A stretch of 64,000 nucleotides of DNA from Faecalibacterium sp. HTF-F (lineage in GTDB: Bacteria; Bacillota; Clostridia; Oscillospirales; Ruminococcaceae). This document shows positions 9,745 to 13,964 of the stretch, in pieces. The notes beneath the pieces were generated by a model. That model was not told the DNA's origin, searched no databases, and saw nothing but the letters and a program-made list of their open reading frames with translations. Positions within the stretch are counted from its first letter, which is position 1, and each line of letters starts with the position of its first letter. A program made the translations under genes and the position numbers. The DNA lies in NCBI RefSeq assembly GCF_023347535.1, contig NZ_CP094473.1:806001-870000 (forward strand). The letters are read 5' to 3'.

Positions 9745-10827
9745 TTAGTTTTTCAAATGGGCATCCCAGCCGGAGGAGGTAATGATCTGCTGATCCGGTG
9801 TGCACCACATGGCTTCCACGCCGTCCAGACTTTCCACGATCTTCAGCCCGTCCTCCAGCGGCTGGCAGAACAGGCCGGTGGTCAGGCAGTCGGCCAGACC
9901 GGAGTCACTGCACAGCACGGTCACACCATTGAAGTAGGTGGAAGGGAACAGGGTGTCCGGGTCGATCAGGTGGTGATAGCGCTTGCCGTCCACCACAAAG
10001 TAGCGCTGGTAGTCGCCGCTGGTCACAAGGGCCATATCGCTCATGTTGATGGCACCGCTCAGCATGGAACTGGCGGTGTACAGGTCGGAAGCGTTCCACG
10101 GGTTTTCCACACCGCCGGTCCACTGGCTGCCGTCCGGCTTTGTGCCGATGGCACGCAGATTGCCGCCCACACTCACCAGAGCGCTGGTCAGGCCGCGGGC
10201 CTCGGCTGCCTGACATGCCATTTCCACGGCATAGCCCTTGCCCACGCTGCCCACGTCCAGCCGCATGTCCGGGTCGGCCAGATAGACGGTCTTGGCGTCC
10301 TCGTCGATGATGACATTGTTGATGTCGCAGTGCTGGGCGGCAGCTTCCAGCTCGTCCATGCCGGGCAGCTTGTTGTCCGCATCGGTCTCGGTGGCCTCGG
10401 CCGCTTCGCGGTAGTTGTGCCAGATGTTCAGCACGCTGCCCATGGCGATGTTCAGCTTGCCGTTGGTGGTGGCGTACATCTGGTCGGCCAGCTCCAGCAT
10501 GGAAAGGATGCGGTCATCCACCTCCACGGGGGCCTTGCCGGCGTTGTCGTTGATGGTCTTCACGTTGGTCACGCCGGGGTAATCGTTGTAGATGTCGTAC
10601 AGCTGATTGTAGGTGACAAGGTCTGCGTGCAGCGCGTCCATCTGGGTCTTGAACACCTCTTCGCTCTCACAATAGGCGATCACCTGCGTTACGGTGTCGA
10701 ACACATCGTAAAAAATGGTGGAGTAGCGGGTCAGCTCCTTCTTTTTGGGGGCACAAGCGGCCAGCAGGCTCAGGCAGAGCGCACCGGCCAGCAGCATGCT
10801 GACCAAACGGTTTGCACGGGTCTTCAT
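9745..10827 (-). CDS. apbE: FAD:protein FMN transferase (ApbE), lipoprotein
   Basis: 360 residues. It attaches FMN from FAD to Thr/Ser of extracytoplasmic flavoproteins such as RnfG/NqrC-type subunits. A lipoprotein signal peptide ends in the lipobox LLAAC (Cys near residue 25). Then follow the family segments FDTVTQVIAYCES, VDDRILSMLELADQ, LDVGSVGKGYAVE, SVGGNLRAIGTK and the DGKRYHHLIDPDT motif. Its ATG overlaps the stop of the upstream DUF3783 gene by 4 bases, so the two are cotranscribed. Confidence 0.93.
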   Translation of the reverse strand: MKTRANRLVSMLLAGALCLSLLAACAPKKKELTRYSTIFYDVFDTVTQVIAYCESEEVFKTQMDALHADLVTYNQLYDIYNDYPGVTNVKTINDNAGKAPVEVDDRILSMLELADQMYATTNGKLNIAMGSVLNIWHNYREAAEATETDADNKLPGMDELEAAAQHCDINNVIIDEDAKTVYLADPDMRLDVGSVGKGYAVEMACQAAEARGLTSALVSVGGNLRAIGTKPDGSQWTGGVENPWNASDLYTASSMLSGAINMSDMALVTSGDYQRYFVVDGKRYHHLIDPDTLFPSTYFNGVTVLCSDSGLADCLTTGLFCQPLEDGLKIVESLDGVEAMWCTPDQQIITSSGWDAHLKN

Positions 10828-11246
10828 AGGGTCTGGTTCTCCTTTGCGGCGGTAACGGCTGCGTGCTCCTCCTGCAGGTGGGCCAGCAGGTCGCCGAACA
10901 CCCAGCTGCGGTTGGAGGGAGTGACCACGGCCTTGAGCGGGATGTTCACCTGTGCCTGCTTCATCAGGTCCAGCAGGGTGTCCACATCCTTATCCTTGAA
11001 GTTTGCCAGCACCAGTGCCGGGGGATAGGCACCCGGTTCCAGCACCAGCGTGCGGGCGGTTCTGGTCTCCACCTCGCCCAGCAGCTGGGCGACGGTCTTG
11101 CCGGCATCCGCAGGGGACACGGGCAGCAGCTTCATGCCAAAGGCGGGGGCCATGCCCTCCAGCTTGCCGCGGTCGGCATTGGAAAGATTCCAGCCCAGCG
11201 CCAGCGGCACACCGGCGTTCTGGTTGCGTGCGATATGTGCTTTCAT
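10824..11246 (-). CDS. DUF3783-like protein
   Basis: 140-residue soluble protein without signal peptide or membrane segment. The central part (LVLEPGAYPPALVLANFKDKDVDTLLDLMK) and the following IPLKAVVTPSNRSWVFGDLLAHL resemble DUF3783, a small Clostridia family of unknown function that often occurs near redox or flavin genes. It overlaps apbE by 4 bases. No function is assigned; a link to apbE substrate handling would be speculation. Confidence 0.7.
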   Translation of the reverse strand: MKAHIARNQNAGVPLALGWNLSNADRGKLEGMAPAFGMKLLPVSPADAGKTVAQLLGEVETRTARTLVLEPGAYPPALVLANFKDKDVDTLLDLMKQAQVNIPLKAVVTPSNRSWVFGDLLAHLQEEHAAVTAAKENQTL

Positions 11247-11378: not shown

Positions 11379-11507
11379 TCATTTCCGGCTGGTAAGCCGA
11401 TTCAGCAGCATCACGGACAGAACGATGATGCCGATGACGAGGATGATGCCGACCATCCCAATGAGCATCATCGGCAGTGTGACCATCCACGAAGAAAGAT
11501 GAAGCAT
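11379..11507 (-). CDS. Small OadG-related membrane subunit
   Basis: A 42-residue protein too short for most ORF callers: a short N-terminus, one long hydrophobic helix (WMVTLPMMLIGMVGIILVIGIIVLSVMLL described here by position, residues 7-35) and a basic tail ending NRLTSRK. The ATG at 11507 is preceded by GGAGG (11519-11515) with 7-base spacing. It lies 13 bases downstream of oadB in the same direction. Small single-helix gamma (OadG-like) subunits hold sodium-pumping decarboxylase complexes together, so context and topology support this role. Sequence evidence alone is modest. Confidence 0.7.
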   Translation of the reverse strand: MLHLSSWMVTLPMMLIGMVGIILVIGIIVLSVMLLNRLTSRK

Positions 11508-11520
11508 AAGTACACCTCCG

Positions 11521-12651
11521 TTAAGTCATCAGGGTCAAGATGAGACCGCCTGCAATGACGGATGCGATCTGCCCCGAAACATTGACGCTGATGGAATACA
11601 TCAGCAGGAAATTCTGGCTGTCCTCTTCCAGACCCATCTTGTTGACGACGCGGCCGCTCATGGGGAAAGCCGAGATGCCGGCGGCACCGATCATCGGGTT
11701 CAGCTTTTTGCCTTCGGGCAGGAAAAGATTCAGCAGCTTTGCAAACAGCACGCCGCCTGCGGTATCAAAGACGAAGGCCACCAGACCCAGTGCAAGGATC
11801 AGCAGCGTGTCGGGCCGGACGAACTTGTCTGCGGTCATCTGCCCGGCAACGGTCAGGCCCAGCACGATGGTGATCAGGTTTGCCAGCACATTCTGTGCGG
11901 TCTCGCTGAGCACGTTCAACACGCCGCACTCCCGCAGCAGGTTGCCGAACATCAAAAAGCCCACCAGTGCCACACTGGCAGGGGCGACTATGCCCGCAAT
12001 GATGGTCACGACGATGGGGAACAGGATCTTGGTCAGCTGGGTAACGCTGCCTTTTTCATAAGGCATCCGGATGAGGCGCTCCTTTTTGGTGGTCAGCAGC
12101 CGGATAACGGGCGGCTGCACGATGGGCACCAGGGCCATGTAGCTGTAGGCTGCCACCATGATGGCACCGAGATACTGGGAGTTGAGGGTGTTTGCCACAA
12201 AGATGGCAGTGGGGCCGTCCGCTGCACCGATGACAGCAATGGAGGCGGCATCCTTCAGGTCAAAGAAGAAGCCTGCCAGAAACAAGGTGAAAAAGATACC
12301 GAACTGTGCCGCCGCACCAAAGAGCATCAGCCACGGCTTTTCCAGCAACGGGCCAAAATCGATCATGGCACCAATGCCGATGAAGAGCAGCAGCGGGAAC
12401 AGCTCGTTGGACATGCCCGCATCAAACAGAGCGGAAATTGGTCCTACCGTATCGCCCTGCGTAATGGCACCCGACAGGGGCAGATTGACCAGAATGGCAC
12501 CAAAGCCCATGGGTAAAAGCAGGCTCGGCTCCATTTTTTTGGCGATGGCAAGGTAAATGAGCAGCGCACCGATGGCCCACATCACCACCATCTGCCATGT
12601 CAGGTTTCCAAAGTTGGAAAACAGACTTGCGAATGTGTTCAGAAAGTTCAT
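11521..12651 (-). CDS. Sodium-translocating decarboxylase beta subunit (OadB family)
   Basis: 376 residues, about ten membrane segments. The beta subunit couples decarboxylation of carboxybiotin to Na+ export. Family hallmarks are the FGPLLEKPWLMLFGAAAQFGIF region (residues 100-121), the strongly conserved AIGAADGPTAIF-type segment (here VIGAADGPTAIFVANTL, near 140) and the C-terminal NPMIGAAGISAFPMSGRVVNKMG (near 315-337). I start at ATG 12651, after AAGGAGGC (12670-12663). No alpha (carboxyltransferase) or biotin-carrier gene is adjacent, so the substrate acid is unknown. The leader contains a riboswitch-like structure with terminator. Confidence 0.92.
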   Translation of the reverse strand: MNFLNTFASLFSNFGNLTWQMVVMWAIGALLIYLAIAKKMEPSLLLPMGFGAILVNLPLSGAITQGDTVGPISALFDAGMSNELFPLLLFIGIGAMIDFGPLLEKPWLMLFGAAAQFGIFFTLFLAGFFFDLKDAASIAVIGAADGPTAIFVANTLNSQYLGAIMVAAYSYMALVPIVQPPVIRLLTTKKERLIRMPYEKGSVTQLTKILFPIVVTIIAGIVAPASVALVGFLMFGNLLRECGVLNVLSETAQNVLANLITIVLGLTVAGQMTADKFVRPDTLLILALGLVAFVFDTAGGVLFAKLLNLFLPEGKKLNPMIGAAGISAFPMSGRVVNKMGLEEDSQNFLLMYSISVNVSGQIASVIAGGLILTLMT

Positions 12652-12691
12652 GCTTTTTCTTTGCCTCCTTGTGCTCCGGTACAGCGGCAAG

Positions 12692-12737
12692 AAAAAAGAG
12701 ACCTCTGCCACAGTACCTTGTCTGTGACAAAAGTCTC
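12692..12737 (-). terminator. Leader terminator upstream of oadB (expression platform)
   Basis: On the minus strand GAGAC (12737-12733) pairs with GTCTC (12702-12698), and GTCACAG (12728-12722) with CTGTGGC (12713-12707), followed by six T (12697-12692). It lies between promoter and ribosome-binding site and uses bases that also form the 3' strand of the leader's first stem, so the two structures exclude each other. Confidence 0.8.
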
Positions 12738-12836
12738 AAGCGAACACATGACATCGGGCATTTTGCCGTGATGACGCTGCCATGCAGCCGTTTTCTGGAT
12801 CACAAAACGGAAAACGGCCCTTTACTCCCTTTTATC
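12726..12836 (-). ncRNA. Candidate yybP-ykoY (Mn2+) riboswitch in the oadB leader
   Basis: The minus-strand RNA starts with GATAAAAG (12836-12829), which pairs perfectly over 8 bases with CTTTTGTC (12733-12726). Directly after the 5' strand is GGAGTA, and directly before the 3' strand is GAGAC; these are the positions and close forms of the conserved internal-loop elements of the yybP-ykoY class (AAAGGGGAGUA ... AGACCUUU). A 9-bp stem GCCGTTTTC/GAAAACGGC and a CGTC element also lie where that class has its second helix and L3 contact. Length (111 nt) is typical. The identification is from memory of the consensus and needs a covariance search. Confidence 0.6.
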
Positions 12837-12842
12837 AAAAGC

Positions 12843-12871
12843 ATTAAAGCAGAAAACAGGGGTAAAGTCAA
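12843..12871 (-). promoter_or_regulatory. Promoter of the oadB leader
   Basis: TTGACT (12871-12866) and TTTAAT (12848-12843) on the minus strand are separated by 17 bases. The predicted transcript start falls at about 12836, exactly where the riboswitch-like fold begins. The remaining bases up to 13286 contain only a weak plus-strand promoter near 13080-13112 and no gene I can support. Confidence 0.8.
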
Positions 12872-13286: not shown

Positions 13287-13964
13287 ATGATCACCATCTC
13301 AGAACGCAGAGAGCAGGAATCTGCTAAAAATTTTGTCCTGCGGGTGCTGATCGATAACATCGTCAACACCCGTCTGGAACCCGGAGAAAAACTCAACGAG
13401 CCGGAGCTGTGCGAGCAGCTGGGGGTCAGCCGCACCCCCTTTCGGGAAGCAGAGCTGGAGCTGGCGCAGCGGCGGCTGATCGAGATCCGGCCCAAGATCG
13501 GCACCTATGTCTCCCTCATCGACGCCGGGCTGGTGGAAGAGGTCCGGCATCTCCGGGCAGTGCTGGAAACAGAGCTGGCGGGGATGGCCTGCGAAATGCT
13601 GACCAAACAGGAGCTCGACCGTCTGTGGGAGAATGTGGCGCTGTGGCAGATGTACATTCAGCGGGCGCAGGAGGAAAAGATCTTTGCACTGGATAAGGAA
13701 TTCCACAAAATGCTGTATGAGCTGTGCGGCTGCCCTTACTGGTATGAGCTGGTGGAAAATCTGGCCCCTCATTTTGACCGCACCACGATGCTCAGCTTCC
13801 GCTGCCGTCCGGCAAAAGCAATTTTGGATGACCACACCAGCCTGCTGAAGGCCATCGAGGCAAAGGATACCGCCGCTGCCCGCACCATTGCCGCCCGGCA
13901 TATGCAGCGGTACACCGAAAATCTGGCCACCATCCGGAAGTCCTTCCCCCAATATTTTAAGTAA
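13287..13964 (+). CDS. GntR-family regulator, FadR/FCD subfamily
   Basis: 225 residues. The N-terminal winged helix (residues 10-75) contains LEPGEKLNEPELCEQLGVSRTPFREAELELAQRRLIEIRPKIGTYV, the classic GntR signature but with REAE where REAL is usual. The C-terminal all-helical FCD domain has metal/effector-type residues in RHLRAVLETELAG, DKEFHKMLY and HTSLLKAIEAKDTAAARTIAARHM. The start at 13287 follows AAGGAG (13274-13279); upstream in-frame codons lack a ribosome site. FCD regulators sense small carboxylates or sugar acids. The divergently placed oadB operon is a possible target, which is inference. Confidence 0.9.
   Translation: MITISERREQESAKNFVLRVLIDNIVNTRLEPGEKLNEPELCEQLGVSRTPFREAELELAQRRLIEIRPKIGTYVSLIDAGLVEEVRHLRAVLETELAGMACEMLTKQELDRLWENVALWQMYIQRAQEEKIFALDKEFHKMLYELCGCPYWYELVENLAPHFDRTTMLSFRCRPAKAILDDHTSLLKAIEAKDTAAARTIAARHMQRYTENLATIRKSFPQYFK

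Follow-up and report, generated by a model that had tools for sequence, protein, structure and literature searches.

A three-way-junction member of the yybP-ykoY RNA class precedes an orphan oadB gene in Faecalibacterium and is probably a divalent-metal ON switch

Why should an RNA with the look of a metal riboswitch stand before a gene for an OadB protein, whose orphan clade has so far been annotated as part of a sodium-pumping decarboxylase, when no decarboxylase is found beside it? The question is raised by a minus-strand leader of Faecalibacterium sp. HTF-F, located in a stretch of 64,000 nucleotides (contig NZ_CP094473.1, positions 806,001 to 870,000) that is referred to here as the window and to which all coordinates refer unless another genome or locus is named. 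An earlier note, made from the letters of this DNA, had compared the leader to the yybP-ykoY (Mn2+) riboswitches, and its description of the RNA stands. The leader begins at the predicted transcription start, which promoter boxes recognized by eye place at approximately 12836; an 8-bp P1 stem is formed by GATAAAAG (12836-12829) and CTTTTGTC (12733-12726), with one T-G among the eight pairs; GGAGTA (12828-12823) and GAGA-C (12737-12733) lie on the inner side of this stem; and the whole 3' strand of P1 is contained in the 5' arm of a 16-pair terminator hairpin that is followed by six T. Fold, core nucleotides and terminator switch are all of the yybP-ykoY class. The elements are arranged in the order P1 5' strand, L1, P1.2, P2, P3.1, L3, P3.2, L3, P3.1, joint, P1.2, L1, P1 3' strand (Table 1). 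Boxes resembling TTGACA...TTTAAT are found at the equivalent place in several orthologous leaders; a stricter pattern search of the leader region returned no promoter.

Table 1. Features of the oadB locus in the window
Feature	Position	Strand	Basis
Probable sigma-A promoter, TTGACT-17-TTTAAT	12843..12871	-	By eye; predicted start ~12836
P1 switch helix, 5' strand GATAAAAG	12829..12836	-	Covariation and sequence
L1, 5' side GGAGTA	12823..12828	-	GGAGTA in 14/15 leaders, AGAGTA in 1
P1.2, 5' strand AAG	12820..12822	-	Pairs with CTT 12738-12740
P2 hairpin	12786..12819	-	8/8 modelled P2 pairs change on both sides (35 leaders)
P3.1, 5' strand GCATGGCA	12778..12785	-	Covariation
L3, 5' side GCGTCATCAC	12768..12777	-	Type A; C40/A41 equivalents within CGTCA
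P3.2 hairpin GGCAAAATGCC	12757..12767	-	Covariation
L3, 3' side CGA	12754..12756	-	Aligned L3 columns
P3.1, 3' strand TGTCATGT	12746..12753	-	Covariation
Joining segment GTTCG, 5 bases, at the place of P4 in four-way-junction members	12741..12745	-	Sequence
L1, 3' side GAGA	12734..12737	-	GAGA or AAGA across 15 leaders; GAGA-C = 12737-12733
P1, 3' strand CTTTTGTC	12726..12733	-	Common to P1 and terminator
Intrinsic terminator	12692..12737	-	Stem 12737-12722 / 12713-12698, 16 pairs, then exactly six T 12697-12692
Ribosome binding site AAGGAGG	12664..12670	-	Sequence
oadB-like gene, 376 aa, orphan clade of OAD beta family	11521..12651	-	PF03977 483.9 bits; TIGR01109 412 bits; tree
mini-OadG, 42 aa, one hydrophobic stretch	11379..11507	-	NF040909 OadG_rel_small 21.3 bits, cut-off 25

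Folding and comparative data confirm that the leader is an aptamer-plus-terminator switch, beyond what chance would produce. The fold of the full-length leader includes the terminator (-55.4 kcal/mol, z -3.40, with one of 200 shuffles as good), a hairpin of high stability by itself (-25.1 kcal/mol); for a transcript that ends just before the 3' arm of the terminator, the minimum-energy fold consists of the aptamer helices (-34.8 kcal/mol). In an alignment of eight same-genus oadB leaders made from sequence alone, the structure holds for 99.2% of cells and 14 of the 31 pairs show changes on both sides, a number reached by none of 500 shuffles, and RNAalifold, run on these leaders without structure input, returned the same helices plus two pairs. 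With 35 leaders the count rises to 27 of 31 pairs and 93.7% of cells are paired, in an alignment that was made to a covariance model and is hence biased towards the structure. The mutual exclusion of P1 and terminator is also kept in related leaders: the two overlap in 36 of the 43 oadB leaders of the type designated A below and in none when the downstream sequence is shuffled, and the corresponding numbers are 79 of 117 against 1 for all type A leaders and 44 of 80 against 0 for type B.

The leader RNA almost certainly belongs to the yybP-ykoY class, as L1 (GGAGTA/GAGA-C), L3 (N-CG-T-CA-NNN-C with CGR) and the invariant A match the fold of that class. In the aptamer from L. lactis, the ligands of Mn2+ are the phosphates of G9, U39, C40, U44 and C45 and the N7 of the invariant A41 (PMC9190785). 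The letters at G9, U39, C40, A41 and C45 are identical in the window leader; the position of U44 is occupied by an A, which counts against reading the RNA as a Mn2+ switch. The window aptamer has no P4 helix, only a five-base joint, and is therefore a three-way junction; by eye, the E. coli mntP leader has a hairpin at the position of this joint. P4 is not strictly required, since a three-way member, the mgtA riboswitch of S. pneumoniae, has been described (PMC9495176). Within the genus P1.2 reads AAG/CTT, AGG/CTT or AG/CT, with GC/GC in three leaders from elsewhere.

Membership by score is another matter. RF00080, the Rfam model of the class (curated cut-off 45 bits), to which the earlier note had pointed, does not report the window leader at E <= 10; Rfam returned five matches to the leader at this threshold, none of a metal class, and the Na+ and Li+ riboswitch families, which the earlier note had also named, are absent among the matches at E <= 10 from 4227 models. 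RF00080 gave no match above its cut-off in any of 61 genomes, the L. lactis control genome being likewise without a match, and on same-genus mntP leaders it reached only up to 32.6 bits. Because these mntP leaders, too, stay under the cut-off, RF00080 is an insensitive judge here: the Rfam model overlooks P4-less class members in gut Clostridia. A covariance model built from eight oadB leaders (R1) was applied to 12 of 17 collected mntP loci, 11 from the genus and 1 from the family, and found seven at E < 1e-5 and two weakly, with no match in three; a wider model (R2) matched all nine of these mntP loci that were given to it, at 28.7-45.5 bits. We file the RNA as a yybP-ykoY variant because its architecture fits, P4 is missing and RF00080 does not claim it by score.

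The relation to known systems can be drawn in some detail. With the yybP-ykoY RNAs proper (RF00080; E. coli mntP and alx, L. lactis yoaB) the window leader shares the P1 switch helix, L1 with GGAGTA/GAGA-C, P2, a P3 whose L3 carries C-A and, at the sequence level, the exclusion between P1 and terminator, and its type of L3 is that of E. coli alx. It departs from them in the missing P4, in AAG/CTT rather than GC/GC in P1.2, in going unreported by RF00080 and in standing before oadB plus a mini-OadG. The mgtA riboswitch of S. pneumoniae is likewise a three-way junction, and senses Mn2+/Ca2+ according to PMC9495176 and PMC11434433, but it controls a P-type ATPase and belongs to another lineage. 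Na+-I (DUF1646) riboswitches are also ON switches that work by terminator exclusion and sometimes precede oxaloacetate decarboxylase genes (PMC9337991); their model has no covariance match in the window leader. A separate observation concerns Rfam family RF02617 (SSRC10, "Streptococcus sRNA 10"), which displays a type A yybP-ykoY core with a terminator and matches eight of our type A leaders (L027, L075, L077, L079, L105, L115, L116 and L121) with up to 45.1 bits, against a cut-off of 56. RF02617 probably represents a yybP-ykoY leader and not a separate sRNA, and SSRC10 may be the S. pneumoniae mgtA riboswitch itself.

The association of this RNA with oadB is recurrent and patchy. A search for OadB gave matches in 50 of 61 genomes, and the element is present in 19 of the 40 oadB loci whose leaders were read, 18 by pattern and one (L027) by eye; these 40 include one gene entered twice (L028 and L038) and three paralogues of canonical type (L037, L039, L040). 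In the genus of the window it occurs in 16 of 27 genomes with an orthologue and is absent before the oadB orthologues of 11 (L015, L016, L018-L024, L028, L036). Most of the aptamer-less Faecalibacterium oadB genes have other, GC-rich leaders, some of them alike. Among the 80 nearest OadB loci of named genomes, 36 have the aptamer within 450 bases upstream, all of type A by pattern, with Faecalibacterium prausnitzii (CNCM I 4541, ATCC 27768), F. longum, F. hattorii and Gemmiger formicilis ATCC 27749 among the carriers; the aptamer was not found in the other 44, one of which offers only 11 upstream bases for inspection. On a broader scale, at E <= 1 R1 gave matches, a part of them false, in 28 of 394 genomes from the order; in the class, R2 did so at E <= 0.1 in 198 of 391 genomes and R3, a model made with leaders of the mntP type, in 170 of 391. 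In the genome of the window, the three R1 matches are oadB and two exchanger genes; R3 finds the mntP leader, which is of type B, and, more weakly, one exchanger leader.

The L3 loop divides the class into two types with largely different genes. We compared 204 leaders from Clostridia, which are the better-scoring matches that were fetched and not a random sample, assigning types from the aligned L3 columns and genes by blastp to six exemplars (Pfam families OAD_beta, Na_Ca_ex, P-type ATPase, CitMHS/ArsB, Mntp and GDT1); the statistics ignore kinship. In type A, L3 reads CG[T/A/G]CA...C, mostly with CGG, CGA or CGC; in type B it is mostly [T/C]CAACA.. with TGG. The 117 type A leaders precede OadB (43), Na_Ca_ex (34), P-type ATPase (33), CitMHS/ArsB-like (4) and unassigned genes (3), and the 80 of type B precede MntP (39), P-type ATPase (23), GDT1 (8), Na_Ca_ex (1) and unassigned genes (9, one of them TerC). 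Seven leaders fall outside this table: four hybrids (two OadB, two MntP), one classed as "other" and two with missing rows. In the two hybrid oadB leaders, L083 and L087, which belong to one family, L3 resembles that of type B (CAACA with CTGG) and departs from the division of genes; the two hybrid mntP leaders have an A-like L3. If OadB, Na_Ca_ex and ArsB genes are set against MntP and GDT1 genes, the ratios of type A to type B are 81:1 and 0:47; excluding the sequences used in model building they are 55:1 and 0:39 (Fisher 5.6e-26, kinship uncorrected). P-type ATPases occur under both types, yet those under A and those under B form largely separate clades, with 7 changes of type on a tree of 54 rows against 17.3 in shuffles. 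A difference of a few loop nucleotides thus separates a widespread class of metal riboswitches into two sets whose regulons largely differ, the P-type ATPases being found in both, and the split offers a natural experiment on how an RNA might discriminate Mn2+ from Ca2+.

The genome of the window contains both types, A before oadB and two Na_Ca_ex genes and B before mntP. The two paralogous Na+/Ca2+ exchanger genes under the same RNA (L101, contig positions 752500-755300; L102, 2108500-2111300) have CGACA and CGGCA in L3, so that the U39 position varies and C-A is kept; the L102 gene is a Na_Ca_ex by Pfam. Both types are also present in E. coli K-12, where the mntP leader (L359, position 971) is of type B and that of alx (L360, position 1381), with an L3 that reads TCGTCATTAC..CGG, is of type A. 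Both E. coli genes are reported to respond to Mn2+ (PMC9603457), and yoaB of L. lactis is of type A, judged from the residues named in PMC9190785. Type A can therefore sense Mn2+, because alx and yoaB are both type A and reported to be Mn2+-responsive. Since type A precedes exchangers, P-type ATPases and orphan OadBs and not MntP or GDT1, the "related ion-sensing variant" that the earlier note had offered beside a link between Mn2+ and the pump may also apply.

What kind of protein the switch controls is less obvious from the name of the gene. By sequence the window protein belongs to the family of the OAD beta subunit (PF03977; S. typhimurium OadB, 6iva; E = 6.6e-96) and keeps its ion-site residues, but it falls in a clade of its own, has a tiny OadG-like partner and stands under a metal-type riboswitch. 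In the tree, 56 orphan rows, comprising the switch-linked OadBs and their aptamer-less orthologues, and 23 canonical paralogues lie on opposite sides of one branch with an SH-aLRT of 100. D203, S382, N412 and E40 of S. typhimurium OadB are needed for Na+ binding or decarboxylation (PMC7274780); the equivalent of D203 is kept in 46 of 46 rows (the window gene being counted twice), that of E40 in 45 of 45, and those of S382 and N412 in 44 of 44 readable rows, as in a true sodium pump, which counts against reading OadB as a metal exporter. Orphan and canonical proteins also differ at 16 positions that are fixed differently, two of which are V416 and A387, replaced by Q and S in the orphan OadBs; in these, P411, which precedes N412, is V or A. 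Six of these 16 signature positions are near the ion site, compared with 19 of 106 comparably conserved positions, a difference that is not significant (Fisher p = 0.09).

A small hydrophobic ORF, of 37-72 and mostly about 40 residues, directly follows oadB in 40 of 42 loci if any hydrophobic ORF between 28 and 120 codons is accepted, which is a loose rule; in one of the two exceptions (L079) the protein is longer, with a similar helix, and in the other (L160) the locus ends 74 bases past oadB. Nearly the same rule gave 42 of 43 behind OadB genes against 17 of 83 behind those for exchangers (11/34), MntP (4/41), ArsB-like proteins (1/4) and GDT1 (1/4), with 0 of 2 for ATPases and 6 of 10 for unassigned genes. 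A sharper mini-OadG motif caught 13 of 43 behind OadB, and a G-M-x-G-[I/V]-F core can be recognized by eye in most of the small ORFs. The small protein of the window matches the NCBI family "OadG-related small transporter subunit", with a score below the cut-off. Unlike in the OadABG sodium pump, no alpha subunit was found beside the window oadB: neither OadA nor a biotin carrier is among the four neighbouring proteins scanned. A biotin carrier is encoded elsewhere in the genome. Of 32 genomes in which oadB is linked to the switch, 30 contain two or more OAD_beta matches (fragments counted) and all 32 a Biotin_lipoyl match, so that a carboxybiotin donor could exist; in many of them a biotin carrier of approximately 120-150 aa adjoins the second OAD_beta. 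Next to oadB, the window also contains a divergent GntR/FCD regulator (13299-13964, plus strand), a DUF3783 protein (10824-11246, minus strand) and an ApbE-like flavin transferase (9745-10827, minus strand).

We consider the leader to be probably a divalent-metal ON switch, of the three-way yybP-ykoY type A, for a cation transporter composed of an orphan OadB and a mini-OadG. Sequence comparison shows that P1, P1.2, P2, P3.1 and P3.2 form the aptamer, with L1 and L3 holding the metal-site nucleotides of the class and the 3' strand of P1 shared with the 5' arm of the terminator. A divalent cation, Mn2+ in the first place and perhaps Ca2+ too, would bridge L1 and L3 and hold P1 in place; the held P1 would block the terminator and oadB would be transcribed, and with no ion the terminator would win. 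OadB and mini-OadG would then serve as a cation transporter relieving the cell of the ion that switches oadB on. The role of transporter is proposed because the position of oadB is occupied at other loci by genes for P-type ATPases, Na+/Ca2+ exchangers and CitMHS/ArsB-like carriers, and we infer a mutual replacement of OadB, exchanger and ATPase from loci, not from complete genomes. Mn2+ is the physiological ligand that we somewhat favour; that OadB exports this ligand is conceivable, at a little less than an even call. Against the reading speak also the missing P4 and the silence of RF00080, the orthologues that lack the aptamer, the four hybrid leaders and the potential carboxybiotin donor. 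The data suggest that OadB and its tiny membrane partner belong to the handling of excess metal ions, a testable role for both this orphan branch of the OAD beta family and the small protein that goes with it. OadB could export ions independently, or it could be an additional Na+ pump that draws on a different biotin carrier; the former is mildly favoured because at other loci the RNA that precedes oadB controls ATPases and exchangers.

The second of these roles would leave OadB a carboxybiotin-driven Na+ pump that uses the other biotin carrier of the genome, with the metal turning on oadB so as to restore the sodium gradient for Na+-coupled metal export by the co-regulated exchangers. This is a tentative reading, one that accounts for the four ion-site residues conserved in every covering row, for the second OAD_beta in 30 of 32 genomes, often beside a biotin carrier, and for the two exchangers under the same RNA type in the genome of the window; control of oxaloacetate decarboxylase genes by some Na+-I riboswitches (PMC9337991) is in keeping with it. 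It is harder to reconcile with the four neighbouring proteins scanned, which include neither an alpha subunit nor a carrier, with the 16 positions fixed unlike those of canonical pumps, including Q for V416 and V or A for P411, and with genome G731 (83% complete), which has one OadB and no small biotin carrier. Sensing of Na+ or another monovalent ion, matched to a sodium pump, would suit the annotation of the gene and the occurrence of Na+ riboswitches before such genes (PMC9337991), but is highly improbable: L1 and L3 constitute a divalent site, the same RNA precedes P-type ATPases and exchangers, and, with no Na+ or Li+ family among the matches from 4227 models, sensing of either ion is rejected. 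An ordinary terminator with a chance resemblance, or an attenuator under protein control, could explain the silence of RF00080 and the stability of the terminator by itself (-25.1 kcal/mol); this is scarcely tenable given the 27 of 31 pairs that change on both sides in 35 leaders, the conserved loops and the recurrence of the RNA before cation transporters in many families, with R2 matching 198 of 391 genomes.

In the identity of the ion the preferred reading, an ON switch responding to Mn2+, has another competitor. Type A could be a sensor of Ca2+, or of Ca2+ and Mn2+ both, with the operon taking part in calcium homeostasis and type B being the dedicated Mn2+ sensor. We regard this as a tentative alternative. 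It would explain why exchangers, ATPases and OadB are found under A and MntP and GDT1 under B, and why the ATPases under the two types are largely of different clades; the three-way mgtA aptamer of S. pneumoniae is reported to bind Ca2+ tighter than Mn2+ (PMC9495176) and is called Mn/Ca2+-sensing in PMC11434433, and yybP variants for other divalent ions are expected (review PMC7266159). Yet alx and yoaB are of type A and reported to be Mn2+-responsive, the leader retains the invariant A with the N7 that favours Mn2+, mgtA transcription is reported to be activated better by Mn2+ than by Ca2+ (PMC9495176), P-type ATPases stand under both types and the exchanger names rest on family models. An extended form of this proposal, more speculative still, holds that L3 defines two natural subclasses, B being the Mn2+ sensor of MntP and GDT1 and A sensing Ca2+ or Ca2+ plus Mn2+, and that the orphan OadB with its mini-OadG of about 40 residues, having evolved from a sodium pump of the decarboxylase kind, would represent a novel type of divalent-cation exporter under A. 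If true, type A would be a natural calcium riboswitch; neither "Ca2+ riboswitch" nor "calcium riboswitch" was found in the literature searched. Papers in the literature searched that combine at least two of the terms oadB, OadG-related, Mn2+ riboswitch and yybP-ykoY do not mention oadB, and among the matches listed, a paper that names both yybP-ykoY and oxaloacetate decarboxylase (PMC9337991) has the former in its references only.

Several loci present the RNA in other arrangements. Type A aptamers occur twice before exchanger genes in one locus (L105), two type B aptamers are approximately 400 bases apart in L228, and L211 has two matches as well. Leaders of the class are also found before unexpected genes, which by eye are those for TetR-like regulators, ABC ATPases and an HlyD-like lipoprotein (L057, L237; L137, L180, L187, L190, L191; L112), and, in L240, before a gene whose product is a Band_7 protein by Pfam.
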